IMG/VR virus record: IMGVR_UViG_3300032213_000694
Location: 1 to 64,000 of that record
Strand: one strand, 5' to 3'
Source of the DNA: a virus
DNA length: 64,000 nt
This document shows, piece after piece, positions 8,599 to 63,740 of the stretch; the stretch's first letter is position 1; each line of letters begins with the position of its first letter. Below the pieces are notes generated by a model, which saw only the letters and a program-made list of their open reading frames with translations, made no database searches and was not told where the DNA came from. The position numbers and the translations under genes were made by a program.

Positions 8599-10338
8599 TT
8601 AGAAGTTGTTATAACCCGTCAACTTGATCGAGTCGGTTGATAAATTAATACCTAATTGATAGCCAGTCTTAGAGCTCGCATCCATATTAGGTGTTACTTT
8701 AATGTAGGTATTGATATCCAAAGGATTACCTATTGAACTAAAGCGTAATTTGAACGGAGTTAATTCACCTGAGATAGGAGTTTTTAATTCTCTGTCCAAT
8801 GAACCAAATCTAACCTTACCTTCTTGGTTATCTACAAATGTGTACCATGTGTTAGGTACCTCATTAATAAGTTGCTCAAACTTAACCTTAGTTGGGTCAT
8901 AAACAAACTCAAACTGCAACGCTGATACTTGTTTCGTATTAGTGTTAATTTTAACAGGAATGTCAATCGTACTAGAAGTAATGGTCACGTTCTTTAAACT
9001 CACATCAATCCCATCAGGCGTGGTTATTAATAATCTTGCTGTTTGAGACACATCAAAGTTCTTCTTTAAACTAGGTATAGCGTTGGTTGCAATCGCATTA
9101 TTAATCACCACCTGCGAGCTATGACTTCGGTTGATGTCGCCAGGTATTACATAGCGTAATTTTAATGGTAGATTCTGCCCAATTGTTGAGGTCTTAAAGC
9201 GAACATAGTTCTTAGTAAAGTTCTTCCAAGAAGATGCGGAGGCTGCATTAAACTCTGCCTCGGTGAATGTTGGTGCACTCATGTACATATCTGTGCCTGC
9301 TGCATAACCTGTAGGCAAAGTGACTAAATTATCTACGCCCGATACCTGAGAGAACAATCTAACTAAGTCTCCTGCATCAAATACTTTATTAAAGTTTACA
9401 TCAGCTGCATAATAGCCCATGCCTGTGATGATGGACTGATTCTTAAACGTTCCGTCTAAATTCTGTGAAATAAACTCAGCTTGTGCTGTAGTGTAATCTG
9501 AAACTGTTACAGCCGCAGAAGATAAGTCCTTAATCGTGTCCATGTTGAACATAACCCTAACGTGATAGACAGTATTAGCCGCAAATCTAGTTTGATCAAC
9601 AGGGATGGTGCCATCTGACAAAGCATCTACGGTGTATGTTTGATTAGTCACCGAGTCTGTAAATGCCACTCTGTGCAATGACATAGGAGTCACATTAGCG
9701 TTCGCATCAATAGAGGCCGTTAAGTATTTGCTCGCTGTTGGGTCAAGCATAATAACACTCGTTAATGGGGTAGTCATTACTGTTGATCCGTTGCTGCCAT
9801 TTTGATTGAACGCTGCAGCAAAGTTCATTTTAATCGGGTCCCATGCAAAACCTGGTGCATCAGTCTTTAATCTATACTTTAAGTTTAACAACCTGCCCTT
9901 ACCTAGGCCACCACTATTAACTGACCAGTTTAAGTAGACACGCATAATTGTTTTTGGACCACCTTGAGTAAAGGTGTAAGATGAATTATAATAACGCACA
10001 TTACCATCTGCTACATTATTAGCCGAGGTTGATTGCCAAGCATAGCCAGGGTATAGATAATAACTCATTGTTGACTGCGAGTTAGCAGGCAATATGGTAT
10101 TTGAGTTTGTTACATTGATTAACTGTAGTGCATTGTTAGGATACTCAAAATCAAAATACAAAGCACGAGTGGTTAGGTTGCCACTACCATCTGCGTGTAC
10201 TTCTACATCTAATGTGTCACCTTTGTTTATGACATTACCCTTAGTATTTAGATTATTAGTGTCATTAGGGAAGTAAAGTTTAACAGTCTGTGCGGAGGCA
10301 CTTACCGATAACAATAACAAGAAAATTAGGTGTTTCAT
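8599..10338 (-). CDS. Large secreted protein with cohesin-like and dockerin-like segments
   Basis: A 579-residue protein with a signal peptide (LIFLLLLSVSASAQ). Residues 17-200 look like a cohesin-type sandwich (VEVHADGSGNLTTRALYFDFEYPNNALQL). Residues about 310-330 contain YYAADVNFNKVFDAGDLVRLF, a good fit to one half of a dockerin calcium loop (D-x-N-x-x-x-x-x-x-D). Another GDIN motif follows at about 402. Residues 440-579 form a second cohesin-like domain (PVKINTNTKQVSALQFEFVYDPTKVKFEQL), the classic 'V.L.YDP..L.F' signature. Cohesin-dockerin pairs hold extracellular complexes together. It overlaps its upstream neighbour by 4 bases. A phage gene of this kind is rare; it could be the exported substrate of the CsgG-like system. 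Confidence 0.85.
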   Translation of the reverse strand: MKHLIFLLLLSVSASAQTVKLYFPNDTNNLNTKGNVINKGDTLDVEVHADGSGNLTTRALYFDFEYPNNALQLINVTNSNTILPANSQSTMSYYLYPGYAWQSTSANNVADGNVRYYNSSYTFTQGGPKTIMRVYLNWSVNSGGLGKGRLLNLKYRLKTDAPGFAWDPIKMNFAAAFNQNGSNGSTVMTTPLTSVIMLDPTASKYLTASIDANANVTPMSLHRVAFTDSVTNQTYTVDALSDGTIPVDQTRFAANTVYHVRVMFNMDTIKDLSSAAVTVSDYTTAQAEFISQNLDGTFKNQSIITGMGYYAADVNFNKVFDAGDLVRLFSQVSGVDNLVTLPTGYAAGTDMYMSAPTFTEAEFNAASASSWKNFTKNYVRFKTSTIGQNLPLKLRYVIPGDINRSHSSQVVINNAIATNAIPSLKKNFDVSQTARLLITTPDGIDVSLKNVTITSSTIDIPVKINTNTKQVSALQFEFVYDPTKVKFEQLINEVPNTWYTFVDNQEGKVRFGSLDRELKTPISGELTPFKLRFSSIGNPLDINTYIKVTPNMDASSKTGYQLGINLSTDSIKLTGYNNF

Positions 10339-16368: not shown

Positions 16369-16875
16369 ATGATCAAAACATATATGAAGCCTAGGCACAT
16401 AAAGCCAAGGGCTATTAAAGTGCGTGAATACAAGGTTAAGCCAATAGTTATCAGACGTGAGGCTGTCGACAAAGACTTTCTAAAATACATTAAAGTTGTG
16501 CGTGCTTGGGCCCGTCATAAGCATGGATTGAGTCTAGATGACTTTGAAATGCTGTGCTATTTGTACTCTGAACACGTATTTGATGCCAATCAGTTCGATC
16601 AATACTGCCAAATCTTTGGATTTACCCAAAATAGACGCAAAGATTTAATGGATAAGGGTCTAGTTGTGCACTTTAGGAAGCCTGAGCCTGGCAAAAGGGC
16701 TATTTATGAGCTATCATACCAAGCAAAGATCATCATGCGTCAAGTTTATGAGATGTTGCAAGGTGAAAAACCTATTCCAAAGCTATCTGACATCAAGCCT
16801 ATAAACAATAAACCCCATCACTTTGCCAAAAGGCAATATGACAGGGTCATTGAGCGTGCTAATAAGAACTTTTAG
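16369..16875 (+). CDS. MarR-like winged-helix protein (168 aa)
   Basis: The only rightward gene in the left 19 kb. It is a 168-residue basic protein. Residues 45-125 (LKYIKVVRAWARHKHGLSLDDFEMLCYLY ... FGFTQNRRKDLMDKGLVVHF ... RAIYELSYQAKIIMRQVYEML) have the helix order and wing of a MarR/PadR-type winged helix: L-x-x-D-F-E-x-L, a recognition segment, a wing 'GKRAIYELS' and a long dimer helix. It probably binds DNA as a regulator. It ends 4 bases into the groES stop from the other strand. The N-terminal 30 residues are very basic. Confidence 0.75.
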   Translation: MIKTYMKPRHIKPRAIKVREYKVKPIVIRREAVDKDFLKYIKVVRAWARHKHGLSLDDFEMLCYLYSEHVFDANQFDQYCQIFGFTQNRRKDLMDKGLVVHFRKPEPGKRAIYELSYQAKIIMRQVYEMLQGEKPIPKLSDIKPINNKPHHFAKRQYDRVIERANKNF

Positions 16876-17129
16876 AGCACCACCACCACATCTTTCTCAG
16901 TGATGACCGTATATAGGTCCTCATTGATGCGAATACTGTGGCCAGCTGCACGATCAAAGTAGATAAATGAGCCTGGTTTGATGCCATCTACTAGCGAGCC
17001 TTGTGATACCACGGTAGCTTTCTTGTAGCGTAGCTCATTTACGTCCGATGCGGACATGATAAGCCCCCCTTTTGATTTTGTGTCCTCTTCCATTGGGACT
17101 ATTAGAATATTCTTTCCAATTACCTTCAT
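16872..17129 (-). CDS. groES: Co-chaperonin GroES (phage-encoded)
   Basis: An 85-residue Cpn10. It fits the family from start to end: KVIGKNILIVPMEED (first strand), the mobile-loop region TKSKGGLIMSASDVNELRYKKATVV, the GSLVDGIKPGSFIYFDRAAGHSI barrel centre and the LYTVITEKDVVVVL final strands. It is shorter than E. coli GroES (97). The mobile loop keeps the GG-hydrophobic motif that binds GroEL. It lies 253 bases downstream of groEL in the same direction, so it is an unlinked operon member or has its own promoter. It caps the phage or host GroEL for capsid folding. Confidence 0.92.
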   Translation of the reverse strand: MKVIGKNILIVPMEEDTKSKGGLIMSASDVNELRYKKATVVSQGSLVDGIKPGSFIYFDRAAGHSIRINEDLYTVITEKDVVVVL

Positions 17130-17153
17130 AACATTAATTATATTTTAGATTTC

Positions 17154-17169
17154 TTTACAAATTTGTAAA
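17154..17169. promoter_or_regulatory. 16-bp perfect palindrome upstream of groES
   Basis: TTTACAAATTTGTAAA reads the same on both strands and lies 25-40 bases before the groES start codon. The minus-strand half CAAATTTG is one base off a TAnnTTTG minus-7 box. The 10-mer TTACAAATTT also occurs in the groEL promoter region (18955-18964). It could be an operator overlapping the groES promoter. Confidence 0.45.
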
Positions 17170-17219
17170 TTTTATTTAACCTTATTATCAGAACTTACAC
17201 TTTTTTACAAGTTTCGTCA

Positions 17220-17246
17220 ATAGTGTGCATTACTAATATACACTAT
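17220..17246. promoter_or_regulatory. Inverted repeat ATAGTGT-N13-ACACTAT
   Basis: Perfect 7-bp arms at 17220-17226 and 17240-17246. The geometry recalls heat-shock CIRCE operators (arms separated by 9) but the sequence is different. It lies between groEL and groES. Confidence 0.4.
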
Positions 17247-17299
17247 CGGTTTGTATTTTTGTCATTTACCTCACCATATTGGTTTGGATTTTTATCATT
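17244..17299. repeat. 23-bp direct repeat, two copies 33 bp apart
   Basis: Copy one at 17244-17266 and copy two at 17277-17299 match at 20 of 23 positions, with mismatches at positions 4, 11 and 18. The period of 33 is close to three helical turns, which fits two protein-binding sites on one DNA face. Confidence 0.6.
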
Positions 17300-17382
17300 A
17301 TCCGTAGTATTACTACCGAATTTGGCACTATTTTGTAACGTATTTTGGCAAAATTTGTTACACAACTCGGAATAATTCCGAA

Positions 17383-18939
17383 TTATGCTCTAATGTTGGT
17401 TATCACCGTCTCTGTGGATAGCAATGTGGTAGCCACTGACACCGCATTCTTGAGTGCTTCTTTAGTCACCTTGGTCGGGTCAATGATCCCAACGCTCATC
17501 ATGTGGCAGTAGGCCCCTGTTGCCACGTTTATGCCTAGACCCTCTTTTGACAACTGTTGTCCCTGGTCAAAGTCTTCTGCGTTCACGTCGATCCCAGCGT
17601 TAGCTAGTATGCGCATCATTGGTGCCACCATCGCTAGTCGTAGTATCTCATCACCCTTGTTATTCTCATCCATCTTAGCAGCGATGTCTTTTAGAGCCAC
17701 GCCACCACCTGGCAGGATGCCCTCTTCTAGTGCTGCTCTAACCGCACACACCGCATCGTCCACCCGGTCCTTCTTCTCCTTCTGCTCAATGTCTGAGTTA
17801 GCACCCACCTTGATGACACCCACGCCACCGCCTAGATTAGCGATGCGTTCTTTTAAGAACTCTTTCTCTATCGCCTGGCTCTCCACGGCCATCTGCTCAT
17901 TTAACTCCTCTACTCTCTCCTCGCCTGCACCCTCTGCATCGAAGATAATTGTATTGAAGCGAGAGCTGACAATCTTACTCGCCCGTCCACAGTCGTCAAT
18001 GGTCGCCATTAGCAAGTTGTCACCCGTCTGCTCCGAGAAGTACTTAGCACCCGTCGCAATTGCTATGTCCTGCATGATCTGATGACGCTTGTAGCCAAAT
18101 GATGGAGGAATAATTGTGCACACCTTTAGACCACTCTTAATCTTGTTCACATTAAGCGTGTTTAGCGCATTCTCATCTAACTCCCCAATGATCAATAGCG
18201 AGCCTCTGCCCTGGTGTACAAACTCAAGGATAGGCAAGATGTCGTTGATGTTTGTAATGGGTTGGTCAGTGACCAAGATGTATGGCTTGTCTAAGATGGC
18301 CTCTTGTTTCTTGTGGTCTGTTACAAAGTACTTACTAGCGAACCCTCTGTCCACCTTCATCCCGCTCACCACCTCAGCGTATGTCTCAGCGGTAGCCGAG
18401 CTCTCTACTGTCACCACGCCTGATAGGCCAACTTGATTGTACGCATCAGCGATAATCTGTCCAATCTCTGCGTCGCCATTAGCGGATATAGTTGCGACAT
18501 CGACCAACTTATCTGATGTAATCTCTGTCGACATAGCCGTTAGCTCATCAGCCACTTTAATAGCTGCAGCCTGCACATCTCTTAATACTTGTGTGGTATT
18601 GTCTTCTTTAGTTAGCACACCAGTTGCCGCATGGATAATGGCCTGTGCCAGCACCATACTTGTCGTCGTGCCATCGCCTGCCGAGTTGGCAGTCTTCTCA
18701 GATGCTTCTCGCATGATCATGACAGCTAGGTTCTCAGCTGGGTCCATTAAGTTAATTGACTTAGCGACCGTCACTCCATCCTTGGTGACCGTGATGCCAC
18801 CAATGTGTTGCTCGGACTCAATGAGCACCGTGCGACCACGAGCCCCTAGTGTTGACCCCACAGCGTTAGCTATGGTATTTACGCCTTTGATTAATTTCTG
18901 TCTGCCTTCACTTCCGAAGACGATATCTTTTACTATCAT
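17383..18939 (-). CDS. groEL: Chaperonin GroEL (phage-encoded)
   Basis: A 518-residue Cpn60. All ATPase motifs are present: LGARGRTVLIE, TKDGVTVAKSI and GDGTTT (88-93, catalytic Asp89), with VDDAVCAVRAALEEGILPGGGVAL near 385-410, which carries the second Asp. The apical domain is complete, and the protein lacks the usual GGM-rich tail and is about 30 residues shorter than E. coli GroEL. With groES downstream it would form a phage-specific folding chamber, probably for capsid or tail proteins. One 60-base line of this gene (17701-17760) is 62% GC by count, versus 32% in a structural gene (40141-40200), suggesting recent transfer or different selection. Confidence 0.97.
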   Translation of the reverse strand: MIVKDIVFGSEGRQKLIKGVNTIANAVGSTLGARGRTVLIESEQHIGGITVTKDGVTVAKSINLMDPAENLAVMIMREASEKTANSAGDGTTTSMVLAQAIIHAATGVLTKEDNTTQVLRDVQAAAIKVADELTAMSTEITSDKLVDVATISANGDAEIGQIIADAYNQVGLSGVVTVESSATAETYAEVVSGMKVDRGFASKYFVTDHKKQEAILDKPYILVTDQPITNINDILPILEFVHQGRGSLLIIGELDENALNTLNVNKIKSGLKVCTIIPPSFGYKRHQIMQDIAIATGAKYFSEQTGDNLLMATIDDCGRASKIVSSRFNTIIFDAEGAGEERVEELNEQMAVESQAIEKEFLKERIANLGGGVGVIKVGANSDIEQKEKKDRVDDAVCAVRAALEEGILPGGGVALKDIAAKMDENNKGDEILRLAMVAPMMRILANAGIDVNAEDFDQGQQLSKEGLGINVATGAYCHMMSVGIIDPTKVTKEALKNAVSVATTLLSTETVITNIRA

Positions 18940-19264
18940 GTTAGATTTTATTTGTTACAAATTTATATACAATAGTAACACCAAACAACTATCATGCCAC
19001 AAATTTGTTTGTGTACAAATGTAGAACTTTACCCCCCATTACGTAAATAATATTTTTTTATTTTAGAGAAAAAAAATTTTTTCTAATTTTCCTTTATATT
19101 TTGTTCATTTTATACATAATCTAATAATAAAATATATAAATAACTATATATCAATAAGTTATAAATGTAAACTTTAAAAAAAAGTGTACACAATTCAACA
19201 TCGTTTGTGTACAACTTTACAAATAGTACAATTCGTCTTGGAAAAGTGCAATGATATTTTAGGC
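18940..19264. other. Control region A: AT-rich, TGTACA palindromes, shared core
   Basis: A 325-base gene-free stretch upstream of groEL. TGTACA occurs at 19012, 19185 (inside GTGTACAC) and 19208. The 25-base core 19095-19119 matches 28183-28207 in control region B at 23 of 25 positions, and the 13-mer TTGTGTACAAATG (19009-19021) is identical to 28097-28109. The groEL promoter lies at the left end. It is a likely site for a phage regulator or replication protein. Confidence 0.7.
18958..18988 (-). promoter_or_regulatory. Bacteroidota-type promoter of groEL
   Basis: On the minus strand, TAAATTTG (RC of 18958-18965) matches TAnnTTTG, and a TTG (RC of 18986-18988) lies exactly 20 bases upstream. 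This is the TTG-N20-TAnnTTTG form used by the primary sigma factor of Bacteroidota. Transcription would begin near 18951, leaving a short leader before the ATG at 18939. Confidence 0.6.
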
Positions 19265-28307: not shown

Positions 28308-30686
28308 GTGCAAGTAACTATTTTTTCTAACATAAAAGAGACATCTGTCCCATTCTATCGGGATGTCTTGGCTATACTCTCTAGAGTTAAAGAGGGTAAG
28401 TCCAAAGACATTGTCCGCAAGATTAGATTGGAGAAAGATAAGGAGCTACGTAACAAGCTCAAGCAAGAGTTGCCTGCGATATGTTTCTCAGGTACGTTCT
28501 CTAAGCGTGAAGACTCGGCTCTTATGGAGCATAGTGGTCTTATATGTTTAGACTTTGATAACTTCCCATCCAATGATGAGATACTAGCCAAGAAAGATGA
28601 ATTGGCTAATGACCCTTATACGTTTTCAGTTTTTATATCCCCATCAGGCAATGGCCTGAAGGTATTGGTTAAGATACCAAAGGATGCTAACAAGCACAAG
28701 TCATTCTTCAATGCACTGGAGGCTTACTATAACTGCGAGCAGTTTGATAAGACATCCAAGAATGTGTCACGTGTGTGCTATGAGTCCTACGATCCGACCA
28801 TCTTTGTTAACATCAACTCTATTGAGTGGAACAAGATTGATGATGCAGAGATTGAGCACGTGACTAAGGATATGAGGCCGACCATCCCTATCGATGATGA
28901 GGATGAGATTATTAATAGACTATCTAAGTGGTGGGATAATAAGTTTGGCTTTGTGTCAGGTGCACGCAACAACAATCTGTTCGTGTTAGCTATGGCGTTC
29001 AATGAGTATGGTGTGTCTAAGTCTGAGGCGATGTATCGCATGATGGCATTCGCATCTGAGGACTTTACAACCAAGGAGATCCAATCCATCATTGACTCAG
29101 CCTATCGCCATACTGACAAGTATGCCACCAAGTATTTTGAGGATACCTCACGTGTTGACTTTGCAAAGAATCAACTAAGCCGTGGTGTGCCAAAAAAGGA
29201 CATCCGTTCTCAACTGAAAGCCTCCGGAGTGGAGGACGGAACGATTGATTCAGTACTAACTAGAATCGAGGAGGAGCAAAGCAAGAATACATTTTGGACT
29301 AAGAGTGACAAGGGTGTGGTGACATTGATACATTACGAGCTCAAGACATTCTTAGAAAATAATGGGTATCGCAAGTATGTACCTGAGGGTAACAAGGGCT
29401 TCATCTTTGTACGCATCAATCAGAATCTAATCGAGATGTGCACGGAGGATGACATCAAGGACTTTGTGTTAAACCACATACTTGATAACTTTCAGGATCT
29501 AAGCGTGTACAATTACTTTGCGGACAAGACTCGATTCTTTAGAGAGGACTTCTTGTCTATGCTTGACTCAGTCAACATCTATTTTGTGGAGGACACAAAG
29601 GATGAGGCGTACCTATACTTCAAGAATGGTGTAGTCAAGGTGACTAAGAACCAAACTGTCCTGCTTAACTATGAGGACTTAGGTGGCTACGTGTGGTCTG
29701 ACCAAGTCATCCAACGTGACTTTGTTTTCTGCCCCGCAGATGAGTGTGACTACAAGACATTCATTCGCAACATCGGTGGTAATGATGACCAACGTGTAGC
29801 CTCCATCGAGTCGACCATCGGGTTCATCCTGCATGCATTTAAGAATGGTGGCTACTGCCCTGCGGTAATCATTAATGATGAGGTGATATCAGAGAACCCT
29901 GAGGGTGGTACTGGTAAGGGTTTATTCATGAACGGCATAAGCCGAATGAAGAAGGCTGTCACCATTGATGGTAAGTCATTCTCGTTCGATAAGTCTTTTG
30001 CTTATCAGTTAGTGAGCACAGACACGCAGGTGTTGGTGTTCGATGATGTGAAGAAGAACTTTGACTTTGAGCGATTATTCTCGGTAGTTACTGAGGGTAT
30101 CACGGTTGAGCGTAAGAACAAGGATGCGATTAAGATCCCATTCCATAAGTCACCTAAGGTGGTCATAACGACTAACTACGCTATCCAAGGTAAGGGTAAC
30201 TCATTTGAGAGGCGTAAGTGGGAGATGGAGTTCAAGCAATTCTATTCTAAAGACTTCACACCTCAGGATGAGTTTGGTCGGTTGTTATTCAACGACTGGA
30301 GTCAAGATGATTGGTGTGCGTTCGACAACTACATGATCAAAGTATTGCAGGGCTACCTAAATACCGGCTTGGTTAAGTGTAACTTTGTAAACCTTAAAGA
30401 ACGCAAGTTCAGGGCAGAGACTAACGCTGAGTTTGCTGAGTGGGCTCATGAGTTTGGGCCATCATTCATACCAACAAATCAGCGATTCAGACCTGATGAT
30501 GTGTTTGATAAGTTTATAGCGGATAACAACGGCATGTTCCGTATGCTATCTAAGCAACGATTTAATTCGTGGCTACGTACCTACTGCTTGCACATGACAG
30601 GAAGTAACCCTGTAGAGGGTCGTGATGGTGCAGGTAAGTGGATGGTGTTCCCATTAAAAGAAGATAAACAATTAGAATTATTATGA
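28308..30686 (+). CDS. Primase-helicase (BT4734/VirE-N domain plus SF3-type helicase)
   Basis: A 792-residue replication enzyme starting with GTG. Residues 1-170 match the BT4734/VirE N-terminal domain, common in Bacteroidota mobile elements and phages (VPFYRDVLAILSRV ... SGLICLDFDNFPS ... FISPSGNGLKVLVKI ... TSKNVSRVCYESYDP). A primase C-terminal domain follows at about 190-270 (a helical EYGVSKSEAMYRM). Residues 500-720 are a helicase of the D5/SF3 type, with Walker A GGTGKGLF at about 533-540, Walker B VLVFDDV at 574 and sensor VVITTNY at 618. It primes and unwinds phage DNA. Confidence 0.92.
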   Translation: MQVTIFSNIKETSVPFYRDVLAILSRVKEGKSKDIVRKIRLEKDKELRNKLKQELPAICFSGTFSKREDSALMEHSGLICLDFDNFPSNDEILAKKDELANDPYTFSVFISPSGNGLKVLVKIPKDANKHKSFFNALEAYYNCEQFDKTSKNVSRVCYESYDPTIFVNINSIEWNKIDDAEIEHVTKDMRPTIPIDDEDEIINRLSKWWDNKFGFVSGARNNNLFVLAMAFNEYGVSKSEAMYRMMAFASEDFTTKEIQSIIDSAYRHTDKYATKYFEDTSRVDFAKNQLSRGVPKKDIRSQLKASGVEDGTIDSVLTRIEEEQSKNTFWTKSDKGVVTLIHYELKTFLENNGYRKYVPEGNKGFIFVRINQNLIEMCTEDDIKDFVLNHILDNFQDLSVYNYFADKTRFFREDFLSMLDSVNIYFVEDTKDEAYLYFKNGVVKVTKNQTVLLNYEDLGGYVWSDQVIQRDFVFCPADECDYKTFIRNIGGNDDQRVASIESTIGFILHAFKNGGYCPAVIINDEVISENPEGGTGKGLFMNGISRMKKAVTIDGKSFSFDKSFAYQLVSTDTQVLVFDDVKKNFDFERLFSVVTEGITVERKNKDAIKIPFHKSPKVVITTNYAIQGKGNSFERRKWEMEFKQFYSKDFTPQDEFGRLLFNDWSQDDWCAFDNYMIKVLQGYLNTGLVKCNFVNLKERKFRAETNAEFAEWAHEFGPSFIPTNQRFRPDDVFDKFIADNNGMFRMLSKQRFNSWLRTYCLHMTGSNPVEGRDGAGKWMVFPLKEDKQLELL

Positions 30687-31537
30687 CAACAGTCAACTCT
30701 TTAAGTGGAGGCAAAACATCATCGTATATGGCGGCTCATTTCCCAGCTGACGTAGATTTATTTTCTTTGGTTAGAACCACAGATGAGTCGTGTAAGTTTA
30801 AGGACGATGCAATCAGAAAGATTGTAGAGGACAGACTTCAGACTGATTTTATTGGTACGCTAGAAGAGGATGCAATTATCTACACGATGCTAGATTTAGA
30901 GCAGTATCTAGGCAGAAAGATTACTTGGATAACCGGCCCAACTTTTGACTCAATCGTTAACAAGAATCGCAAAGACAATGGGGAGTATTATAAATACTTG
31001 CCTAACGTAATGCAAAGATTCTGCACGGTGCATATGAAAGTTAACCCAATCTTTGAATGGTGTAGAGCCAACACGGATCTACCTGTTGAAATGAGAATTG
31101 GGTTCAGGGCTAATGAGACTAGACGTGCCAACAATATGTTGAAGCGTTGTGTAGATGGAATTGAGAACTTTAGGGTTATCAAGTCAACTAACGAGCGTGG
31201 CAGACATAAGTGGCACTCTATCCCATACCGCACACCAAGATTCCCTTTGATAGAAGAGAACATTTTAAGAGAGCAGGTTCACGAGTATTGGAAAGATAAA
31301 CCAGTTAGGTTCGCTTACATGAACAACTGTGTTGGATGTTTCCATCGTAATCCTGCTTTACTTAAGTTAATGTCGGAAATTCAACCCACTAAGTTTGATT
31401 GGTTCGCTAATCAGGAGACCGACTCGGCTAGATTTATCAAGGGTACATCCTATAATAAAATCAAAGAATCATTTAAACAAGTGGAATTATTTGAGTCGGA
31501 CTTTAACGAATGCGACTCAGGTTTCTGCGGACTATAA
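30683..31537 (+). CDS. PAPS reductase/PP-loop-family protein
   Basis: A 284-residue protein with an N-terminal PP-loop (VNSLSGGKTSSYMAAHF), the ATP-pyrophosphatase motif of the adenylyl-sulfate reductase family. Conserved Cys lie in LPNVMQRFCTVHMKV and NNCVGCFHRNP, and the end is CDSGFCG, suggesting an iron-sulfur or thiol role. In phages this family is annotated PAPS reductase, but DndC and tRNA-thiolation enzymes also belong here. It overlaps the primase-helicase by 4 bases and precedes a Cys-rich small protein. The true substrate, nucleic acid or sulfate, is unknown. Confidence 0.85.
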   Translation: MTTVNSLSGGKTSSYMAAHFPADVDLFSLVRTTDESCKFKDDAIRKIVEDRLQTDFIGTLEEDAIIYTMLDLEQYLGRKITWITGPTFDSIVNKNRKDNGEYYKYLPNVMQRFCTVHMKVNPIFEWCRANTDLPVEMRIGFRANETRRANNMLKRCVDGIENFRVIKSTNERGRHKWHSIPYRTPRFPLIEENILREQVHEYWKDKPVRFAYMNNCVGCFHRNPALLKLMSEIQPTKFDWFANQETDSARFIKGTSYNKIKESFKQVELFESDFNECDSGFCGL

Positions 31538-31539
31538 CT

Positions 31540-31734
31540 ATGCCAGATATAGCAATGTGCACCGGAGATGAGTGCCAAAAGAAGCAGATGTGCTACAGGT
31601 ACACAGCAAAAGCGAGTGACTACCAATCTTATTTCATGACACCACCTGTAAAGGAAGATGGTACATGTGAGTATTTTTGGAACAACGAAAAATATAATAA
31701 TAAAACAGAAGAAGATGCCATACTTGAATCATAA
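31540..31734 (+). CDS. Cys-rich small protein (64 aa), MCTGDEC type
   Basis: ATG 31540 (MPDIAMCTGDECQKKQMCY) starts the protein. Four Cys (C7, C12, C18 and one before the end) with the pattern C-x4-C-x5-CYRYTAKASDYQSYF ... GTCEYFW. A very similar small protein is common in marine and freshwater phages, with no function proved. The Cys pattern and the adjacent PAPS-reductase-like gene suggest a metal cluster or a redox/thiol partner. The last 20 bases overlap the next gene. Confidence 0.8.
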   Translation: MPDIAMCTGDECQKKQMCYRYTAKASDYQSYFMTPPVKEDGTCEYFWNNEKYNNKTEEDAILES

Positions 31735-32347
31735 CATTCCAACACTAACTTGTTTCATACGTAACGAGTTTTTATTTAACCATACCAAAGGGCATGGAGA
31801 GCACACGCTATGTGACGTTCACTCAGTCGCATCCATTGAGAAAAGAATCCCTTTGTTTGAGGCGTTCTTGGAGAATGGTGTGAACTGGACACGTAGACCT
31901 ATCCACGCATTTTGTTGGAGAAAAGATGCTGAGGAGCTACCACTTACTGAGTACATGTATTGGGATTGCTTTAGCTCATACGTAGATGTTCAGGTAAGAG
32001 CACGCATGTCAGGGCTAAGAGCTGACCTGATCTCAATAACAGGAGTCAAAAGACAAGGTATTTACTTGTTTACTCTGGACTGGGCATTTGAGAATAAGGG
32101 TATGCTAGATACTAACTTCTCTGAGACGCCTGAGCACAAGTGTGGTCACGTGTTTAAAATGGACAATGGCAACTACTTTATCTATCCTAATAACAGAATT
32201 ATTTGGATGGACAATGCTTGGACTTACAATCGAATTGATAAGAACCCGGGATATCAAATTGACATGTCGGTTTACTCTATTGAGAACAAAACAAACTACG
32301 AGACTGATTATAGTTATGTAACTGAATTTAAAGACAATGAAGGATAA
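31715..32347 (+). CDS. Conserved phage protein (210 aa), YLNHNIPTLTCFIRNEFL type
   Basis: ATG 31715 (MPYLNHNIPTLTCFIRNEF) is preferred to the upstream frame at 31658, because that extension lies inside the Cys-rich gene. It reads LYNHTKGHGEHTLCDVHSVASIEKR, then RRPIHAFCWRKDAEELPLTEYMYWDCF and later DNGNYFIYPNNRIIWMD. Highly conserved in gene order after the Cys-rich protein in phages of several habitats. Function is not assigned. Its Cys and His residues could bind metal. Confidence 0.78.
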   Translation: MPYLNHNIPTLTCFIRNEFLFNHTKGHGEHTLCDVHSVASIEKRIPLFEAFLENGVNWTRRPIHAFCWRKDAEELPLTEYMYWDCFSSYVDVQVRARMSGLRADLISITGVKRQGIYLFTLDWAFENKGMLDTNFSETPEHKCGHVFKMDNGNYFIYPNNRIIWMDNAWTYNRIDKNPGYQIDMSVYSIENKTNYETDYSYVTEFKDNEG

Positions 32348-39279: not shown

Positions 39280-42200
39280 TTAGAACTTCACTTTTGTTTT
39301 TGATTTAGAAGCAGTTTTTTCTTCTTTAGCTTTCTTTTTATTTTTCAAAGCTTGATTCTTTACAATCTTCTCGATGTTTGTTCCATAACTCAAGAATTCT
39401 CTTGGCCCTAATGTACTAGCAGTTATGGCTCTAGGTATCAAGGATAATTTTAGTTGTTTCTTCTGCTCCTCTGTGTATTCTGTTTTATTCCCATACTTAT
39501 CAGTGAAGTAACCTTTGTCTGCATCTTTATACGTTTGGTATATTTTATACAATGTTTCATAAGCGACATTCGGAACACCACCAATTAAGGACATTAAACT
39601 TTCTCCCTCTTTCGGGTCTTTTACATAGAATCTAAATGGAGTATCTAGCCTTTCTTTTTTCTTTGCTGTCTCTCTTTCTTGTAATGTTTTTCTAGGTTTA
39701 CGTTTGCCCTTTACTTTTTTGCCTAATAATGATTCTGCATTTTTAGCAGCTTCTTTCTCGGCTTCTTTTTCAGTTTCTTTTTTAGCTTTTAGTTGTTCAT
39801 CTGGAGTACCTCCTTCAATCATATCTAAAGCTGAATTAAGGCTTAATAATACTAAATCAGATGTAAATTCAGGTAAATTAAGAGCAAATTCATTAAAAAG
39901 TTTACCATAAAATATCTTATCCTTAAATTGTTCGTCTAGTAATTTATCCTCTTCGTCTCTATCGTCTCCACCTAAAGAAGCATATGCTGCTGCTAATAAC
40001 CATCCTTGTATACCTCTTTGAACCCATTCGAATATATATGATTCAGCAATACCGGATGCTAAAGATTGTAAAGCAACAGCTTTATCTTCAATGTTAGAGT
40101 TTTTAGATGTAAGTATTGTTATATTTCTTGCATTCTTATCCTTTAAGTTAAATTGATAAGACGCAAACGGAAATACCAATTGACGAATAATCTTTGTGGT
40201 TGGATTTTTAGATGCAAGTAACTTTCCTCCCAACTCAGATACGTTCATATTTTGCTGATCTTGAACCATATATTCAGCGTAATCAGCAGCCTCTTCGTTT
40301 ATTTCGTGAGTTTTCCAGTCAATATTTGTATCTAAACCTAAGTCCTTTAGTTTCTTTCTGTAGTATGCAAACCAAGAAACTTTAGCTACAAAAACGTCAG
40401 GCTTTTTTAAGAATGTTTCAATATAGAAATCACTTATATTTGAAGCACCATCTACCAATTGGTTTACATTCTTATTTTTATTCCTCTCTATTAAATTCTC
40501 TGCATAGTCTATGGATGTTTGAGACTCTGCACCACGCAAAGAAATACCATATCCAGAATTATTTAATGCTTTTATAGCATCATCATTCATATAATCTGCA
40601 AAGCTATTAAGATAAGCCTGTGGGTCGTCAATAGTATTGATTAATGTATTAAATGTCATAGGCAATGATTGCTTAACAGCAGCATTCATAGATCCTAAAC
40701 CAATCTTTGTACCCATACGACTTACAGTAGAGAGTACCTTAGCTGCAATCTTAGTTTCATATAAACTAGATGTATCTGATCGCTCTCTTAATGCATTTAT
40801 ATTAAACATCAAACGATCCTTAATCATTTGTCTTTGATTGTAATCAGGAATCATTTCTTTGAATGCGTTTGAGTTTATATAACCCATATACCTTTGAACA
40901 AAAGGAGTTGTTCTTACATCTATTATGGTTCTTTCTAAAGCTTTAATATTACCAGAATCAAAGTCATAATCTCTAACACGGGTAACTTCATTATTCGTCA
41001 TAGGAAGACCTTCTATTCTATTTATTTTTTGTAACGTACCAACACGCTCAGTTTTTATTGCATCAAAATCCATTTTAAACGAACCTTTAGTCAATAAATC
41101 AACGCTTGTATCTGAGGCTAATTTTTCATACATCTCAGGGGTATAGTTTGTATCTTCACCTAGAATTATACCATAATAATCGGCCGCCATTCTCTTAAAT
41201 TCAGGATAGTATTTTTTCCATTCGTTTTGGAATTCCTGAACAGCAGTTTGATTTATAGGATCAATTTCTTTCTTAACACCATCGATATCTTTTTTATCTT
41301 TTATTTTTTGATATACCTGGTCATATAGGTCAGCTTTCTTGACCAATAAACTGTCTTTCGTCTTTTTCAATTCTTCAATCGTAAGACGTAATTGCTTCAT
41401 CTTTCTATCGAACTCTTTTTTAATTTCCTCAGGAGTTCCATTTAGAATGGTTCTAGATAAATCAGCAAATATACCACGCTCGTATGCATTATATGCTGTA
41501 TAGAAATCTTGGTCATTTGGTCTAGAGCCTTTAAATCTTTCTGAGTATTTATCAGCAAACTTATTAGCAATACTTTTACCATCAACAAATCCCTTAACAA
41601 TTCCAGAAAACCCAGAGTTTCTTAAGAACTTAATACCCTTGGCTGTGCTTCTAAACATATTGACAACCAAAGAGTCCACCTTTGATACATAGCGACCCCA
41701 TAGAGAACTATATATCTTACCAGCAAGAGGAATTCGTCCTAATAATCCATAGATTAATGGTTGGGCGACTAAACCTGCATTTAAATCTTTATCGGAATTA
41801 GTAACACCAACGTATGATTCATACACAGCTCCCATTCGAGTTGTAATACCATTAACGATTAAGTTCTCTAATGCATTTACAGCAGCCAATTGTTTATCAA
41901 GAGGCAATGCTTCAATGTCCATATTTAAGAAATTGTTAATCAAATCAAAATCGGCATCCAACTCATCAATCTCCCCGTTGGCCATCATATCACGTACAAC
42001 ATCAGAGAACCCTTCAAAGGCATTCTTAGTATATTCTTTTACTATGTCGGACTTAGTAGAATCTGCATTCTCGACATTCTCTTCCACTGATGAGATGTAA
42101 TCTTGAATTTCTTCTAATGACATCGTGTCGTCAATTAGTTTTGCATCCACCAAATATTGGTATTGATCCAATAAGATATTTTTATTTATCTCATCTTGGA

Positions 42201-45200
42201 TATCTTTCTGCTCTTTAACATAGTCATTTATTTCAGACAATACAGCTGCACGTCTTGCTAATACCTCTCCTTTAACTACTTTTACACCACGTACCGCATT
42301 GAACATTTGCTCAGCATAATCAATATACTCATCAATATCCTCTACTAAACTTGGTCTGATAGCTACGAGTCCTCTTGCTGCAATCTTAATATCATCAACT
42401 ACAGTATCTGACTTAATAGCTTTCTTAATCTTAGATCGTAAATCATTAGCCTGAGCAACTTTAGCTGCATATTCAGCGTTATCTAATACACGTTCAACTC
42501 TATTGAAGAAGTTCTCACGTATAGTAGGATTCATCAAATTAGATTTCAACCCATTCAATAAAACATTAGCCTGAGCTTGAGTTAACTTGTTCCCTTTCTG
42601 AAGTGACTTTATTTTATCTACCGCATTAGCAATGCTTGTTTGCACTGCTTTAGTGGCAACCTTTGCTCCTTTAGCTTCTGCTTTTAATGTAGCTTTCAAT
42701 GCATCTAATTCATTGATAGCAATCTTATCTAAAGATCCTTTTAGAATACTATTTACTTTCTCTATGAATTTTTTTCTAGCATCTACTGTGTCTAGCTTTT
42801 TGCCTAATGCATTGAATACAATATTAAGGTCTCTTTTACTTAATGCACCTTTGATATTTTTCTTTACATAATCATTAATAAGCTTTCTTGCTTTTTCTGC
42901 AAAATCAAATCCTGTCTTAGCAGCCTTAGATTCTACTCGCAACTTTTCTTTTAATCCTGTAACTTCATTAACAGGAACTTTCTTACCAGGCTCTTGACCT
43001 AATATCTTTTTAGTTGATGAGGCTTTCTTACCTTTTGTAGGTGTGACAGGCTCTTCTGTTACTTGCTCAACTACTTCTTCAGGTTGAACTTCTTCAGTAA
43101 CTGTAACCGTTGGGCCACCGGTAACTTGCTCAGTGACTCCTTGAGTTGTTGGAGTTTGTTCGATGGCTCCGAAGACTTCATCGATGTCTTGTTCTGTTGC
43201 ATTTTGCTCAAAGTTTTTAAGTGTGTATTGGTAAGCTATCTCTTGAGCACGTTGCCCACGGATTGTTCTTTTTTGATTGTTATCGGTATCTAAGTTTACA
43301 GATACTACATCACCATTTTCATCATAATTAATAGCAGCCATTGGATCGCTATAATTATTTAGTAAAGTATTACCCTCTATTGTTACAGAGTTGTCATCGT
43401 TTACTGTGATTTCTAAAGGTGCCTCCTCAGAAAGACCTAACTCTTCTAGAGATTGGTCTTGTATTTCATTGATGTTGCCAAGTTCAGTAATTCTATCGTC
43501 AGATTCAAACACAACTGTGCCATTCTCTTCAGTATACAAACTGCCTCTTTTGCCATCTAATGTAAATACTTTAGGCTTATTTACTGCATCAATTATTGTT
43601 ACAGCTGGGGTAACGACCTCTTCTGTAGTAGTTACTACTTCTTCAGCAGGAGTTACTTCTTCTGCTTTAACTTCTTCGGTAACGACTTCAGGTTCTGCTT
43701 GGGGTTCTCCTTGCGCCACTTCTCCGCTAACTCCGGTTTCTGGCTGTACAGGTACTTCACTTGTTGTTTGCTCTTGAACGGCATTTTCTGGTATTTTAGA
43801 TAGTTGTTCGTTATTTTTATTTATTATCGCTTGCTTACTTTCAATTTCAGCTGCAATGTTTTTAACTAATTGCGGATTTTTATTTGCCATATAAGCAGAT
43901 AAATCATCAATCTCATTTTGGACTTTCTGATTCTGTGCAATTAAAGCAAAAGCTTCCCTTTGTCCTTTAGTAGAAAGATTGTCAGGTATTTCCTGCAATA
44001 TTTTTTTGCTATTAGCTAGTTCTTTTATAGATGCCTTAGCTTGATCTTCAGTAATCTTACCTTCGATAAATTGCACTTGCAAGTTTGCTAAAGTGGCTGT
44101 CATATGGTTGTCATCCAACACCAAGTCTCTCCACTCTTCAAAGTCAGCATCACTCATTTGCTTTCCTGACAAAGCTCTTTGGGCTCCTGAAATTGTACCA
44201 CCCATAATAAGACCACCTAAGCCTTCTACGTGTGCATCATATAAAACCTTATCTAAAAATTCACCTGAAAGTAATTTAGGGTTTTCAAATAAGTCAATAT
44301 TATTTGCCTTATCATAAATTTCCTTAGTAACAGTTTCTGTAAAGGACTGAAGACCACCAGTTTCAAATTCACTTAAGTAGGCTTTTGCTGCGGTAGTTCC
44401 GCCTTGTAAAATCATCTTACCTACAGCACTTTCTGCAACCTTTTTAGTAGCTAATTCTATAGCTCCTAACGTAGCATTTTTAGGAACCTGAGACAATACC
44501 ATATTGGTAAATCTACCCAACAAAGGAGTGCCTTTACCTAATACATTTCTAAATCCAAAATCCTCTAAGAATCCAGATACAATCGCAATGGGAAGTGTTA
44601 TCTTCTTTCTTTCGTTCTCATCCATTGAAGCTGTCTGAGGATTGTTATCCATCTCTTCATTTAGATTAGCATACATTTGCATTGCACCTGTAGCAAAACG
44701 ACCATATCCACCTGAAGCCATCATAGGAATACTTTCAGCAACACCTAATACGGCCTGAGCAATATCCCCTGACTTCTTTTTTTCTTGAATAAATTCCTCG
44801 GTAGTACCCTCAGATTTTACTCCTTCATAACCTTTCTTTAGAATTGGTTTAAACTCATTAATAACTTCTTTCTTAGAAAGGTCTTTAACTTTAGTTTGTA
44901 TTTGATCTTCGGTAAGTTTGCCTTTTGATTCTTTTATAACCTTGTTTCTTAGCTCAGATTCCTTTTGCTTGCTTGCATAAGGTATCCCCATTAAATCAAG
45001 TATTTCAATACCTGCATCAATGGTTGCCCTTTGCATACCTTGGCCATACTTTTCGAATCCAGTTACAACAGAATTCCAAAGAGCACCACCCCAATTACCT
45101 TGCTTGGCTTTTTCTGCATAGTTTTGAGTGACTAATTTATTTAATCCCTTTACATCTTGATTTAACTGTGCAATATCTTGGTTTACAGTTTCAGCCTCTT

Positions 45201-45804
45201 TATTTAATGATTCTTTTTGATTTTCTAAAGTAGCAATCTTAGCATTGACCGATGGGTCATTAGGGTTTAATTCGATGTAAGCATTTAACTCATCGTATTG
45301 TTTTGACAACAAATCAGCCCTCTTTTTAAAATCGGCTTGTTTAATAGATAAGTCTTTTGATTTACCGCTTAAAGCTTTACCAACAAAATCAACATCTTTA
45401 GTAACACTCCCTTTAGGAGCGAAAAAAACGGGATTGGTATAATCAAATTTATTCTTCTTTTTTGATGGGTCTAATAATAGCAATCCCATGCTTTCTCCTT
45501 GTGTAGGAGATTTTAATATAGAACCCTTTTGACGAGGAGCCGTAGGTGAAGCAGACGCCCCAGAAACAGACAGAACTTCTTCTGTAGGTTGTGACGGATT
45601 TTTTTTTTTAGCTTCGCCAAAAAACTGAGTATAAAACTCTGTTTCAGGCTTGGTATATAAATCTTCAGAAACTAATAATCCATGTAATTTTTTTTGAGAT
45701 TCAGGATTTGAAAACTGCTTCTCAAAATCATCAAATGATTTAGTGTAAAGATTCTCACTTACCAATAAATTATGTAATTTTTTTCTGCTAGTGTTATCCA
45801 TCAA
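39280..45804 (-). CDS. Giant internal virion/ejection protein (2174 aa)
   Basis: The largest gene. Residues 1-60 hold a tandem repeat (KKLHNLLVSENLYTKSFDDFEKQF, then KKLHGLLVSEDLYTKPETEFYTQF). A Glu/Val/Thr-rich disordered segment at about 680-980 and long helices follow. Near residues 1930-1990 there is an amphipathic/hydrophobic run (SGIAESYIFEWVQRGIQGWLLAAAYASLGG); the end is Lys-rich. Large proteins in this place, after two Ala/Gln-rich neighbours, are the gp16-type ejection proteins of podophages. They are ejected into the host and form a conduit. I saw no lysozyme or RNA-polymerase motif. Confidence 0.85.
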   Translation of the reverse strand: MMDNTSRKKLHNLLVSENLYTKSFDDFEKQFSNPESQKKLHGLLVSEDLYTKPETEFYTQFFGEAKKKNPSQPTEEVLSVSGASASPTAPRQKGSILKSPTQGESMGLLLLDPSKKKNKFDYTNPVFFAPKGSVTKDVDFVGKALSGKSKDLSIKQADFKKRADLLSKQYDELNAYIELNPNDPSVNAKIATLENQKESLNKEAETVNQDIAQLNQDVKGLNKLVTQNYAEKAKQGNWGGALWNSVVTGFEKYGQGMQRATIDAGIEILDLMGIPYASKQKESELRNKVIKESKGKLTEDQIQTKVKDLSKKEVINEFKPILKKGYEGVKSEGTTEEFIQEKKKSGDIAQAVLGVAESIPMMASGGYGRFATGAMQMYANLNEEMDNNPQTASMDENERKKITLPIAIVSGFLEDFGFRNVLGKGTPLLGRFTNMVLSQVPKNATLGAIELATKKVAESAVGKMILQGGTTAAKAYLSEFETGGLQSFTETVTKEIYDKANNIDLFENPKLLSGEFLDKVLYDAHVEGLGGLIMGGTISGAQRALSGKQMSDADFEEWRDLVLDDNHMTATLANLQVQFIEGKITEDQAKASIKELANSKKILQEIPDNLSTKGQREAFALIAQNQKVQNEIDDLSAYMANKNPQLVKNIAAEIESKQAIINKNNEQLSKIPENAVQEQTTSEVPVQPETGVSGEVAQGEPQAEPEVVTEEVKAEEVTPAEEVVTTTEEVVTPAVTIIDAVNKPKVFTLDGKRGSLYTEENGTVVFESDDRITELGNINEIQDQSLEELGLSEEAPLEITVNDDNSVTIEGNTLLNNYSDPMAAINYDENGDVVSVNLDTDNNQKRTIRGQRAQEIAYQYTLKNFEQNATEQDIDEVFGAIEQTPTTQGVTEQVTGGPTVTVTEEVQPEEVVEQVTEEPVTPTKGKKASSTKKILGQEPGKKVPVNEVTGLKEKLRVESKAAKTGFDFAEKARKLINDYVKKNIKGALSKRDLNIVFNALGKKLDTVDARKKFIEKVNSILKGSLDKIAINELDALKATLKAEAKGAKVATKAVQTSIANAVDKIKSLQKGNKLTQAQANVLLNGLKSNLMNPTIRENFFNRVERVLDNAEYAAKVAQANDLRSKIKKAIKSDTVVDDIKIAARGLVAIRPSLVEDIDEYIDYAEQMFNAVRGVKVVKGEVLARRAAVLSEINDYVKEQKDIQDEINKNILLDQYQYLVDAKLIDDTMSLEEIQDYISSVEENVENADSTKSDIVKEYTKNAFEGFSDVVRDMMANGEIDELDADFDLINNFLNMDIEALPLDKQLAAVNALENLIVNGITTRMGAVYESYVGVTNSDKDLNAGLVAQPLIYGLLGRIPLAGKIYSSLWGRYVSKVDSLVVNMFRSTAKGIKFLRNSGFSGIVKGFVDGKSIANKFADKYSERFKGSRPNDQDFYTAYNAYERGIFADLSRTILNGTPEEIKKEFDRKMKQLRLTIEELKKTKDSLLVKKADLYDQVYQKIKDKKDIDGVKKEIDPINQTAVQEFQNEWKKYYPEFKRMAADYYGIILGEDTNYTPEMYEKLASDTSVDLLTKGSFKMDFDAIKTERVGTLQKINRIEGLPMTNNEVTRVRDYDFDSGNIKALERTIIDVRTTPFVQRYMGYINSNAFKEMIPDYNQRQMIKDRLMFNINALRERSDTSSLYETKIAAKVLSTVSRMGTKIGLGSMNAAVKQSLPMTFNTLINTIDDPQAYLNSFADYMNDDAIKALNNSGYGISLRGAESQTSIDYAENLIERNKNKNVNQLVDGASNISDFYIETFLKKPDVFVAKVSWFAYYRKKLKDLGLDTNIDWKTHEINEEAADYAEYMVQDQQNMNVSELGGKLLASKNPTTKIIRQLVFPFASYQFNLKDKNARNITILTSKNSNIEDKAVALQSLASGIAESYIFEWVQRGIQGWLLAAAYASLGGDDRDEEDKLLDEQFKDKIFYGKLFNEFALNLPEFTSDLVLLSLNSALDMIEGGTPDEQLKAKKETEKEAEKEAAKNAESLLGKKVKGKRKPRKTLQERETAKKKERLDTPFRFYVKDPKEGESLMSLIGGVPNVAYETLYKIYQTYKDADKGYFTDKYGNKTEYTEEQKKQLKLSLIPRAITASTLGPREFLSYGTNIEKIVKNQALKNKKKAKEEKTASKSKTKVKF

Positions 45805-55710: not shown

Positions 55711-57126
55711 CTAGTTCTCGAAGATGAAGAAGTTGTTCGCACCAAGAGTACATAAAGCACGCTCAGATAAGAAGTTAACCTCCATTGCATCAAGGTCGCT
55801 AGTTTGAGCACCACCAGCAGAACCAGTGATCCAAGTTTTGTAGCGACGATCTTCAGTTTCAGAAGCACGGTAACGAACGTGTAAGAACGGACGCTTTGCA
55901 TTCTTTCCTAAGATTTGATCGTATACGTTAGTAGAACCTGCAGGTACTAAGATACCATTGATACCACCACCAACGATTCCACCACGAGTAGTAGCATCGT
56001 TTAAGTATTTCCAATCAGTCTTGTAGAAGTCATAACCACGACGGAATCCTGTGAAACCTAATTCTAACGCCATGTCTTCTTTGTTGTCGAACAAACCGTA
56101 TGAAGTACCACCTGATCCGTAAGAGTTTTGAGAAGCTAACATGTCGTTGATATCGAAAGAGAACTTACGATTAACGAACAATACGTTCTCTTGGATAGCT
56201 CCTTGCTTGTCAAGACGTTGGATGATAGCATCGAAGTCAGACAAAGTAGTAGGGTTACCACCAGACCATACGTTACCACGAGTTTGAACTGCATCAAATA
56301 AACCTTGAGTACCAGCGTCGCCAGGTTGAACTTGAGAAGAAGCAACTGTCAAGTAAGTTAAAGCACCTGAACCAGCTTCTGCAGGAACACCTTCAACCAT
56401 TGACATCTCTAAGTAGTCTTCGAAACGCAAACGAGTCTCGTGCTCAGATTTGATGTACCATAAGTAACCAGTAGCACCATTCTCAGAAGTTACTTCAACC
56501 CATCCGATTTGAGCCATGTCAGAACCAGATACAGTGTACTTGTCTTTGATGATGATTGGCTTGTTCTCGAAGAATAAGTCTTGAGACTCTAAAGAACCGA
56601 TCATACCAGTTGAACCCTTAGTGAATTCAGAACCGTAAACGAATGCAGTAGAAGCAGTCGACGCAGCGATTGTTTGTCCTGGACCGTTGTAGTAAGCAAC
56701 TGTGAAAGTGTTAGCAGAAGTATTTACTGCAGTGATAACCGCTTTATCAGAAGCAGAACCAGTGTTAGCAGATAAAAATACAGTTTGGTTAACACGGAAG
56801 TTAACGATTACGTTAGAATCATTAACTGTCCAAGTTGCGGTGTCAGCACCAGCAACAGCAGTAGTTGTTACGTTAACATATTTAGTATGTAAACGACCTT
56901 GCTCTGCCCACTTAATTAAGTCAGAGTTAGAAGGTAATTCTGCACCTACCATACGTAAGAAAGATGCAATAGAGCGATTACCATAACGTTCGAATTCTGA
57001 CTCGTAAGTATCAGGAAGATACTGGTTTAAGAAGTCGAAGTTAGTAATGTAGTTAGTAGGCAATGTTGCCCGTACCGCAGAGGGTTGCAATTGAAACCCC
57101 GGGGATGCTTGAACTGATCCAGCCAT
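55711..57126 (-). CDS. Major capsid protein (471 aa)
   Basis: 471 residues, starting MAGSVQASPGFQLQPSAVR. The gene follows the scaffold in the canonical place. Early helices are NYITNFDFLNQYLPDTYESEFERYGNRSIASFLRMVG, followed by a Thr/Val-rich insertion (about residues 85-170, TTAVAGADTATWTVNDSNVIVNFRV) that could be a surface domain. The HK97-type axial part follows (YEDYLEMSMVEGVPAEAG). The family resembles capsids of the marine/freshwater Bacteroidota podophages. The A-rich leader before ATG (AACAAACAACAAAACA) is Bacteroidota-style. Its terminator has a UUCG loop. Confidence 0.9.
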   Translation of the reverse strand: MAGSVQASPGFQLQPSAVRATLPTNYITNFDFLNQYLPDTYESEFERYGNRSIASFLRMVGAELPSNSDLIKWAEQGRLHTKYVNVTTTAVAGADTATWTVNDSNVIVNFRVNQTVFLSANTGSASDKAVITAVNTSANTFTVAYYNGPGQTIAASTASTAFVYGSEFTKGSTGMIGSLESQDLFFENKPIIIKDKYTVSGSDMAQIGWVEVTSENGATGYLWYIKSEHETRLRFEDYLEMSMVEGVPAEAGSGALTYLTVASSQVQPGDAGTQGLFDAVQTRGNVWSGGNPTTLSDFDAIIQRLDKQGAIQENVLFVNRKFSFDINDMLASQNSYGSGGTSYGLFDNKEDMALELGFTGFRRGYDFYKTDWKYLNDATTRGGIVGGGINGILVPAGSTNVYDQILGKNAKRPFLHVRYRASETEDRRYKTWITGSAGGAQTSDLDAMEVNFLSERALCTLGANNFFIFEN

Positions 57127-62915: not shown

Positions 62916-63193
62916 TTAGTTTTTGCTCTTTGTTCTGCGAATCCACGATTAGTAGGTGCAGAGTTACCAACTACTCCCTCAATAATATTATTCTCCTCCT
63001 CGACTCTTTTAAGAATCTCAAAAGCATCCATGATAGCAAGTTTCTTTGCTGCCGCTGCGTTCTTAAGTTTGTCTGCAGACAAGTCATCATCCATGTGGGT
63101 GACAATCTTCTCTTCAGCAACTTTAATCAACTCCTCAACGGCTTTATACCCAGAGTCAATAATACGCTTTTTTAACTCGGTTATTTTATTCAT
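62912..63193 (-). CDS. Small terminase-like helical protein (93 aa)
   Basis: 93 residues, all helical and charged (ITELKKRIIDSGYKAVEELIKVAEEKIVTHM ... ADKLKNAAAAKKLAIMDAFEILKRVEEE). It lies directly upstream of the large terminase (4-base overlap), the place of small terminases. The helical composition and the A-A-A-A-K-K-L-A-I-x-D-A pattern are similar to short phage TerS-like proteins. The assignment is by position and composition, not by a clear domain. Confidence 0.72.
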   Translation of the reverse strand: MNKITELKKRIIDSGYKAVEELIKVAEEKIVTHMDDDLSADKLKNAAAAKKLAIMDAFEILKRVEEENNIIEGVVGNSAPTNRGFAEQRAKTK

Positions 63194-63740
63194 TTAATTT
63201 GATTGTTACATTCTTAGTGTACACACGATATAGAATCTCGCCATCTAGGTCGAACTCATACTCGCTATCAGGCTCAAACGTGACCATGTCGCCATCTTTT
63301 ACACCTAAGTCTAGTATCTCATCGTTCGTGTATCTTATCGTGCCTGTAAGAGGCTTCTTTGCGTCTGCTGTAGTAATGCCTTCAAAGTCATTATCGATTG
63401 GCTTGATGAATAGATATCTACCGATTCCTTTCCACTCACCACCTGGCTTCTTATACGCATATGGATCGTCGACAAAGAACAAATCCTCTCGGAAGTAATT
63501 CCAAGCAGACTTCTCTCTACCACGCATGTCATAGTACAACCTGAAAGTATTATGATGGCACACAATTGTGTCGCCAGGCTCGATAGGCCCAGTGTAATTA
63601 ATAGGGGTTGAGATAACAACAGCTTCTCTTGTCGTTACACGATGATCTTCTTTAGAGGTGGAAATGTAAAGTTCTCCTCTTTGATTATCATACCTGTTGC
63701 CCCCCTTCGGTGTTACCAAATAATAGTAAGGGCTCCGCAT
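63186..63740 (-). CDS. Double GroES-like barrel protein (184 aa)
   Basis: 184 residues, beside the terminase. The second half (ITTADAKKPLTGTIRYTNDEILDLGVKDGDMVTFEPDSEYEFDLDGEILYRVYTKNVTIKL) has the pattern of a GroES barrel: TGxI...LGVKDGDxVxF...E...DGExLYRV...NV. The first half (AVVISTPINYTGPIEPGDTIVCHHNTFRLYYDMRGREKSAWNYFREDLFFVDD) repeats it, with GPIEPGDTIVxHHN. So it looks like two GroES-like domains in tandem, separate from the 85-aa groES. It could be a capsid co-chaperonin (like gp31) or an unrelated barrel. Confidence 0.7.
   Translation of the reverse strand: MRSPYYYLVTPKGGNRYDNQRGELYISTSKEDHRVTTREAVVISTPINYTGPIEPGDTIVCHHNTFRLYYDMRGREKSAWNYFREDLFFVDDPYAYKKPGGEWKGIGRYLFIKPIDNDFEGITTADAKKPLTGTIRYTNDEILDLGVKDGDMVTFEPDSEYEFDLDGEILYRVYTKNVTIKLNE

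Follow-up and report, generated by a model that had tools for sequence, protein, structure and literature searches.

A groEL–groES pair and a second Cpn10-like gene in a probable podovirus of Bacteroidota

The chaperonin genes and their surroundings

The window, by which we mean the whole stretch of DNA analysed, is the first 64 kb of an IMG/VR virus record of 66.5 kb. Its minus strand carries groEL and groES on either side of a spacer and, next to the terminase gene, a second co-chaperonin-like gene of the same phage that the initial annotation did not mention:

16872–17129, minus strand: groES, a co-chaperonin of 85 aa with the mobile loop GGLIM and without a roof hairpin (Pfam, alignment with E. 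coli, predicted fold)
17130–17382, minus strand: groEL–groES spacer of 253 bp with 27% GC, apparently an insertion-prone junction in relatives
17220–17246, no strand assigned: second palindrome or hairpin, within the spacer, 13-nt arms that are 85% complementary, −10.4 kcal/mol as RNA
17361–17387, no strand assigned: palindrome or hairpin across the groEL stop codon, 13-nt arms that are 85% complementary, −15.9 kcal/mol as RNA
17383–18939, minus strand: groEL, a group I chaperonin of 518 aa without a GGM tail (Pfam, PHROG, NCBIfam, catalytic residues, dN/dS)
18958–18988, minus strand: promoter-like element TTG-N20-TAAATTTG upstream of groEL, retained with both boxes by 14 of 18 relatives
60702–62915, minus strand: terminase large subunit gene terL (PHROG 6681, 564 bits), a kept neighbour of the Cpn10-like gene
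63186–63740, minus strand: gene for a Cpn10-like protein of 184 aa, upstream of terL (PHROG 13932, profile comparison, Foldseek)

PHROG matches in the window include portal, terminase, virion structural proteins, tail fibre, endolysin, ribonucleotide reductase and primase, and a sub-threshold match to T7 gp14 is consistent with an ejection apparatus of the podovirus type. TerL has 67% identity with that of Podoviridae sp. ctfjg026, 44% with those of the Flavobacterium elemo phages and 36–38% with those of Cellulophaga podoviruses. Judged from its sequence, the phage is probably a podovirus of Bacteroidota, and since the named hosts in its neighbourhood all belong to Flavobacteriia, its own host probably belongs to that class too. 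Elsewhere in the window, a protein of 579 aa (8599–10338, minus strand) with a signal-peptide-like N terminus has a cohesin-domain match (PF00963, 45 bits), which is unusual for a phage. An adjacent gene pair (30683–32347, plus strand) has PHROG matches to PAPS reductase and ferredoxin and no Pfam match at E ≤ 0.01, and a protein of 2174 aa in the structural module (39280–45804, minus strand) has no PHROG match.

Both chaperonin genes proved real and intact where they had first been placed, with diagnostic motifs and Pfam scores above the curated cut-offs. GroEL scores 174 bits against Cpn60_TCP1 (PF00118, cut-off 34.3), spanning residues 23–515, and 436 bits against PHROG 5725. It passes the NCBIfam GroEL subfamily model NF000592 (495 bits, cut-off 397) and falls below the cut-off of the GroEL equivalog TIGR02348 (484.5 bits against 582.1), so that it is a divergent GroEL and no equivalog under NCBI's rule. 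As first described, the protein has no GGM tail, its C terminus reading ...TETVITNIRA, and at 518 aa it is about 30 residues shorter than the E. coli GroEL of 548 aa. Because Flavobacteriaceae GroELs (542–544 aa) keep the GGM tail, with C termini such as GGGMPGMM, its loss is a property of the phage protein.

The ATPase residues are as in E. coli at 15 of 15 positions (T30, G32, K51, D52, D87, GTTT, D398, N479 and D495 among them), as are 10 of the 12 apical residues for substrate and GroES, the exceptions being Y199F and V263N. All seven inter-ring residues are unlike those of E. coli (K105G, A109K, E434 deleted, R452M, E461D, S463N and V464A), and they include the four positions of the classic single-ring mutant. 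With every one of them changed, the contact between rings may be weaker in the phage GroEL, as predicted from a stretch where the alignment is gappy. Values of dN/dS are low (0.07–0.14 for groEL and 0.02–0.14 for groES); such purifying selection supports function for both genes.

GroES scores 39.4 bits against Cpn10 (PF00166, cut-off 21.1) and stays under every NCBIfam GroES cut-off. Its segment KSKGGLIMSA aligns with KSAGGIVLTG of E. coli and contains the Gly-hydrophobic tripeptide of the mobile loop; in the predicted model this loop is disordered (pLDDT below 50 at residues 16–19 and 22–26) on a Cpn10 barrel. Foldseek matches the model to GroES structures with E down to 1.5e-5, and 1g31, of T4 Gp31, is also among the matches. 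The roof β-hairpin is deleted when the protein is aligned with E. coli GroES.

The spacer between the two genes, initially described as repeat-rich, deserves that name for its palindromes and not for direct repeats. Its eight duplicated 7-mer pairs are at chance level (shuffled mean 13.6), and two near-perfect palindromes occurred together in 0 of 300 dinucleotide shuffles. The spacer measures 127–1349 bp among relatives, some of which have ORFs inside it for HTH proteins or small unknown ORFs. Given this variable length and the inserted ORFs, it looks like an insertion-prone junction whose flanking genes stay together. Three relatives have an extra HTH_3 ORF between groEL and groES, possibly a mobile or regulatory insertion, and the spacer HTH ORF of one relative also matches GIY-YIG below threshold (19.1 against 22.6 bits).

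Upstream of groEL, TTG-N20-TAAATTTG fits the Bacteroidota promoter type. The pattern occurs 24 times in the window against 12.3 expected, about twofold above chance; as it is weak by itself, the case for a putative groEL promoter comes from its conservation. No groES promoter common to the lineage was found among the relatives compared, because several of them have other ORFs in place of the stretch upstream of groES. A 27-nt repeat also lies upstream of groEL, in two copies 196 bp apart (19000–19026 and 19196–19222), and its core GTTTGTGTACAA has no further copy in the window on the same strand.

The 184-aa protein encoded upstream of terL matches PHROG 13932 ('co-chaperonin GroES') with E 2.8e-20. 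Profile comparison rates its C-terminal half GroES-like at 96% and its N-terminal half at 4.5–13.6%. Its predicted model (pLDDT 76, with low-confidence segments at 27–32 and 121–128) has as its best Foldseek match the double-domain Cpn20 chain 7ekq_R, over both domains (E 4e-4, TM 0.54), and the N-terminal half is therefore Cpn10-like by predicted fold only, not by sequence profile. A GroES-like Gly-hydrophobic mobile loop was not seen in its sequence. The gene lies upstream of terL at all 51 testable loci, and at least 583 relatives of the protein occur in viral contigs. Cultured relatives already carry a cpn10 annotation for this gene, so its existence is not new. The protein may act as a second lid, or it may be a derivative linked to packaging, and the position of its gene beside terL points to an unexplored tie of chaperonin lids with head assembly or with DNA packaging.

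Occurrence and origin of the pair

The initial annotation held that both genes in one phage are uncommon. Within this group they are the rule: every contig of 58 kb or more that we examined, 16 in all, carries groEL and groES. The window's own group has both together with the second Cpn10-like gene in 11 of 11 contigs. Further contigs were found through the Cpn10-like gene: the five of them that measure at least 58 kb all carry the pair, and two shorter ones, which may be fragments, are without groEL. One related contig, IMGVR_UViG_3300044825_000904, has 104 kb, where other large contigs have 58–69 kb; it could be chimeric, a concatemer or a larger genome. Both genes also occur in cultured phages, namely the Flavobacterium elemo phages, Cellulophaga phi38:1 and Calle_2, and Maribacter phage Panino, whose GroEL and GroES have already been reported (PMC11590407). 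Cpn10 has been listed as a core gene of Pervagoviridae (PMC8776804), and a 2020 paper stated that GroEL and GroES occur together in some phages (PMC7185714). The related podoviruses phi19:3 and Gundel_1 are without groEL, and the chaperonin system is thus not essential across the wider group. The complete GroEL–GroES pair is a fixed, inherited trait of a known, widespread group of Bacteroidota podoviruses and not a one-off acquisition.

Among phages at large, a GroEL-like match was present in 265 records of a phage collection. Some of these are plainly bacterial contigs (a 501-kb Salmonella record, for example), which inflates raw counts of phage groEL; AFYI01000007.1, OR847602.1 and MT835992.1 are among the bacterial-looking records. 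In 19 records examined whole, a Cpn10 match exceeded the cut-off in 12 and reached only sub-threshold level in crAss-like cr108_1, and Cpn10 was absent from four jumbo phages, Halocynthia JM-2012 and ctf1B273.

If the phage had recently captured a host groE operon, the donor's GC content and codon usage could still be visible, and groEL does stand out. Its GC3 of 0.546 is the highest in the window (mean 0.37) and its codon use is atypical (z = −10.5). The figure of 62% GC in the initial annotation is correct for a single 60-bp line (at 18640) and does not extend to the gene, which has 49.3% overall, compared with 44.6% in groES and 38.3% in the window. Codon analysis of the whole gene did set groEL apart from the window; the primase gene, however, is equally atypical (z = −10.4), and the primase and exonuclease genes have a GC3 of 0.52, so the contrast is mainly against AT-rich structural genes. 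Moreover, groEL GC3 is just as high (0.47–0.59) in relatives down to 70% identity, which makes it a lasting trait with no sign of recent transfer and rules out high GC as a mark of transfer. The raised GC of groEL could perhaps be linked to expression.

Phylogeny also speaks against such a capture. Phage relatives of the GroEL share 70–98% identity with it, and the closest cellular GroELs among the matches listed, from a collection of 84,980 species, reach only about 44% and are spread across many phyla. We built GroEL trees of 78 and 63 sequences, leaving out GroES, which at 85 aa is too divergent. The GroEL of the window falls outside all sampled cellular GroELs, in a group formed by its own lineage and ctfjg026 (SH-aLRT 99), and the elemo GroEL joins this group more weakly (support 90 and 77 in the two trees). 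Instead of branching inside the chaperonins of Bacteroidota, it groups with GroELs of Bacteroidota podoviruses, and a tree constrained to place it within Bacteroidota is worse by 61 log-likelihood units (AU p = 0.004). Captures are visible in the GroEL tree, with Bacteroides phage SJC03 within Bacteroidales and two Vibrio phages beside E. coli; the placement of the phi38:1, crAss cr108_1 and Panino GroELs is tentative because they form long branches. Gene order agrees with the tree on an origin outside recent host capture: groEL precedes groES in the window's lineage, ctfjg026, elemo and Panino, and groES precedes groEL in SJC03 and immuto. The possible transfer from another host that had been suggested is thus contradicted as a recent event by the cellular GroELs sampled, and we regard a recent capture as highly improbable. 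An ancient derivation from some cellular GroEL is possible.

Proposed function and alternatives

We consider it likely that this Bacteroidota podovirus has a group I chaperonin pair that is complete in itself and is inherited within the phage lineage. Its most likely function is that of a phage-dedicated GroEL and GroES, the latter a roofless lid like T4 Gp31, which would fold virion proteins. An independent folding system had been suggested at the outset, and the idea is well supported as an interpretation by the conserved ATPase and apical residues, the low dN/dS and the presence of the pair in every large contig. The groEL gene would be driven by its own Bacteroidota-type promoter, the phage GroEL ring would capture unfolded phage proteins, and ATP and the phage GroES would close the folding chamber, whose roofless dome could accept larger virion proteins. 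Our best guess is that the substrates are major virion proteins, such as the candidate capsid protein (55711–57126), the portal and the ejection proteins. Cultured relatives (elemo on Flavobacterium sp. BAL314, Cellulophaga phi38:1 and Calle_2) make the phage-dedicated function testable.

The changed inter-ring residues could also mean that this chaperonin works as a single ring and without GroES, as in the jumbo phages EL, OBP and AR9, with the groES-like gene serving another role. EL is published to dissociate into single rings with ATP, and AR9 to be a single ring. The GroEL described here, though, does not fall in the jumbo-phage branch (21% identity to AR9), most of its GroES-binding apical residues are kept, and its GroES is conserved, mobile loop included, whereas the jumbo phages checked have no Cpn10; we find this reading quite unlikely. 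Alternatively, the phage proteins might mainly modify the host chaperonin, through mixed rings or phage lids on host GroEL that redirect folding capacity. T4 and RB49 encode lids only and work with host GroEL (PMC9598537), and in Cellulophaga phi19:3 the two kinds of Cpn10 gene occur without groEL, so that any lid there would depend on host GroEL. Here, by contrast, a full-length GroEL with an intact active site lies beside groES in every large contig, and an identity of about 44% to Flavobacteriaceae GroEL would make mixed rings unlikely. Mainly modifying the host chaperonin is therefore an improbable role for these proteins.

Returning to the phage-dedicated chaperonin, it is tempting to speculate that the phage has a folding machine of three parts: its own GroEL with altered, perhaps single-ring contacts, the roofless GroES, and the double-domain, terL-linked lid, which would pass folded head or packaging subunits to assembly. 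We hold this extension as tentative and somewhat doubtful. Our search of open-licence papers turned up no characterised phage that combines a chaperonin of its own with two distinct lids.

Comparison with known systems

The jumbo phages EL, OBP and AR9 resemble the window in encoding GroEL-like ATPases. In published work these are co-chaperonin-independent, and they occupy a branch separate from the window GroEL; the records checked (EL type, AR9) have no Cpn10, whereas groES is adjacent to groEL here. Bacteroides phage SJC03, Vibrio 2.275.O and KT1024 likewise have a group I GroEL and a GroES. Unlike in the window, their GroELs nest within host GroELs, and SJC03 retains the bacterial order groES–groEL.

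T4 Gp31, like the phage GroES, has a mobile loop and no roof loops, an absence thought to help accommodate the capsid protein gp23 (PMC6318259). It is larger, has a longer loop and uses host GroEL, whereas the phage of the window has its own. The predicted fold of the 184-aa protein resembles that of Cpn20 (7ekq_R) over both domains, yet the two share only 14% identity.

Like the window, Cellulophaga phi38:1 and Calle_2 (Pervagoviridae) have groEL and two cpn10 genes, one with a single domain and the other of double length and upstream of terL. Their GroEL is 37% identical to that of the window and is placed, tentatively, apart from it in the tree, on a long branch, and their cpn10 is upstream of groEL with one gene between, unlike in the window. 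Podoviridae sp. ctfjg026 (MW202828) and the elemo phages (Elemovirus) have the order groEL–groES, a single-domain roofless GroES and a Cpn10-like gene beside terL, as the window does. Their GroELs are 48% (ctfjg026) and 41% (elemo, on a long branch) identical to that of the window and differ from it at some apical residues (Y203, L234). The two genes overlap by one base in elemo and are a few bases apart in ctfjg026, whereas in the window 253 bp lie between them.
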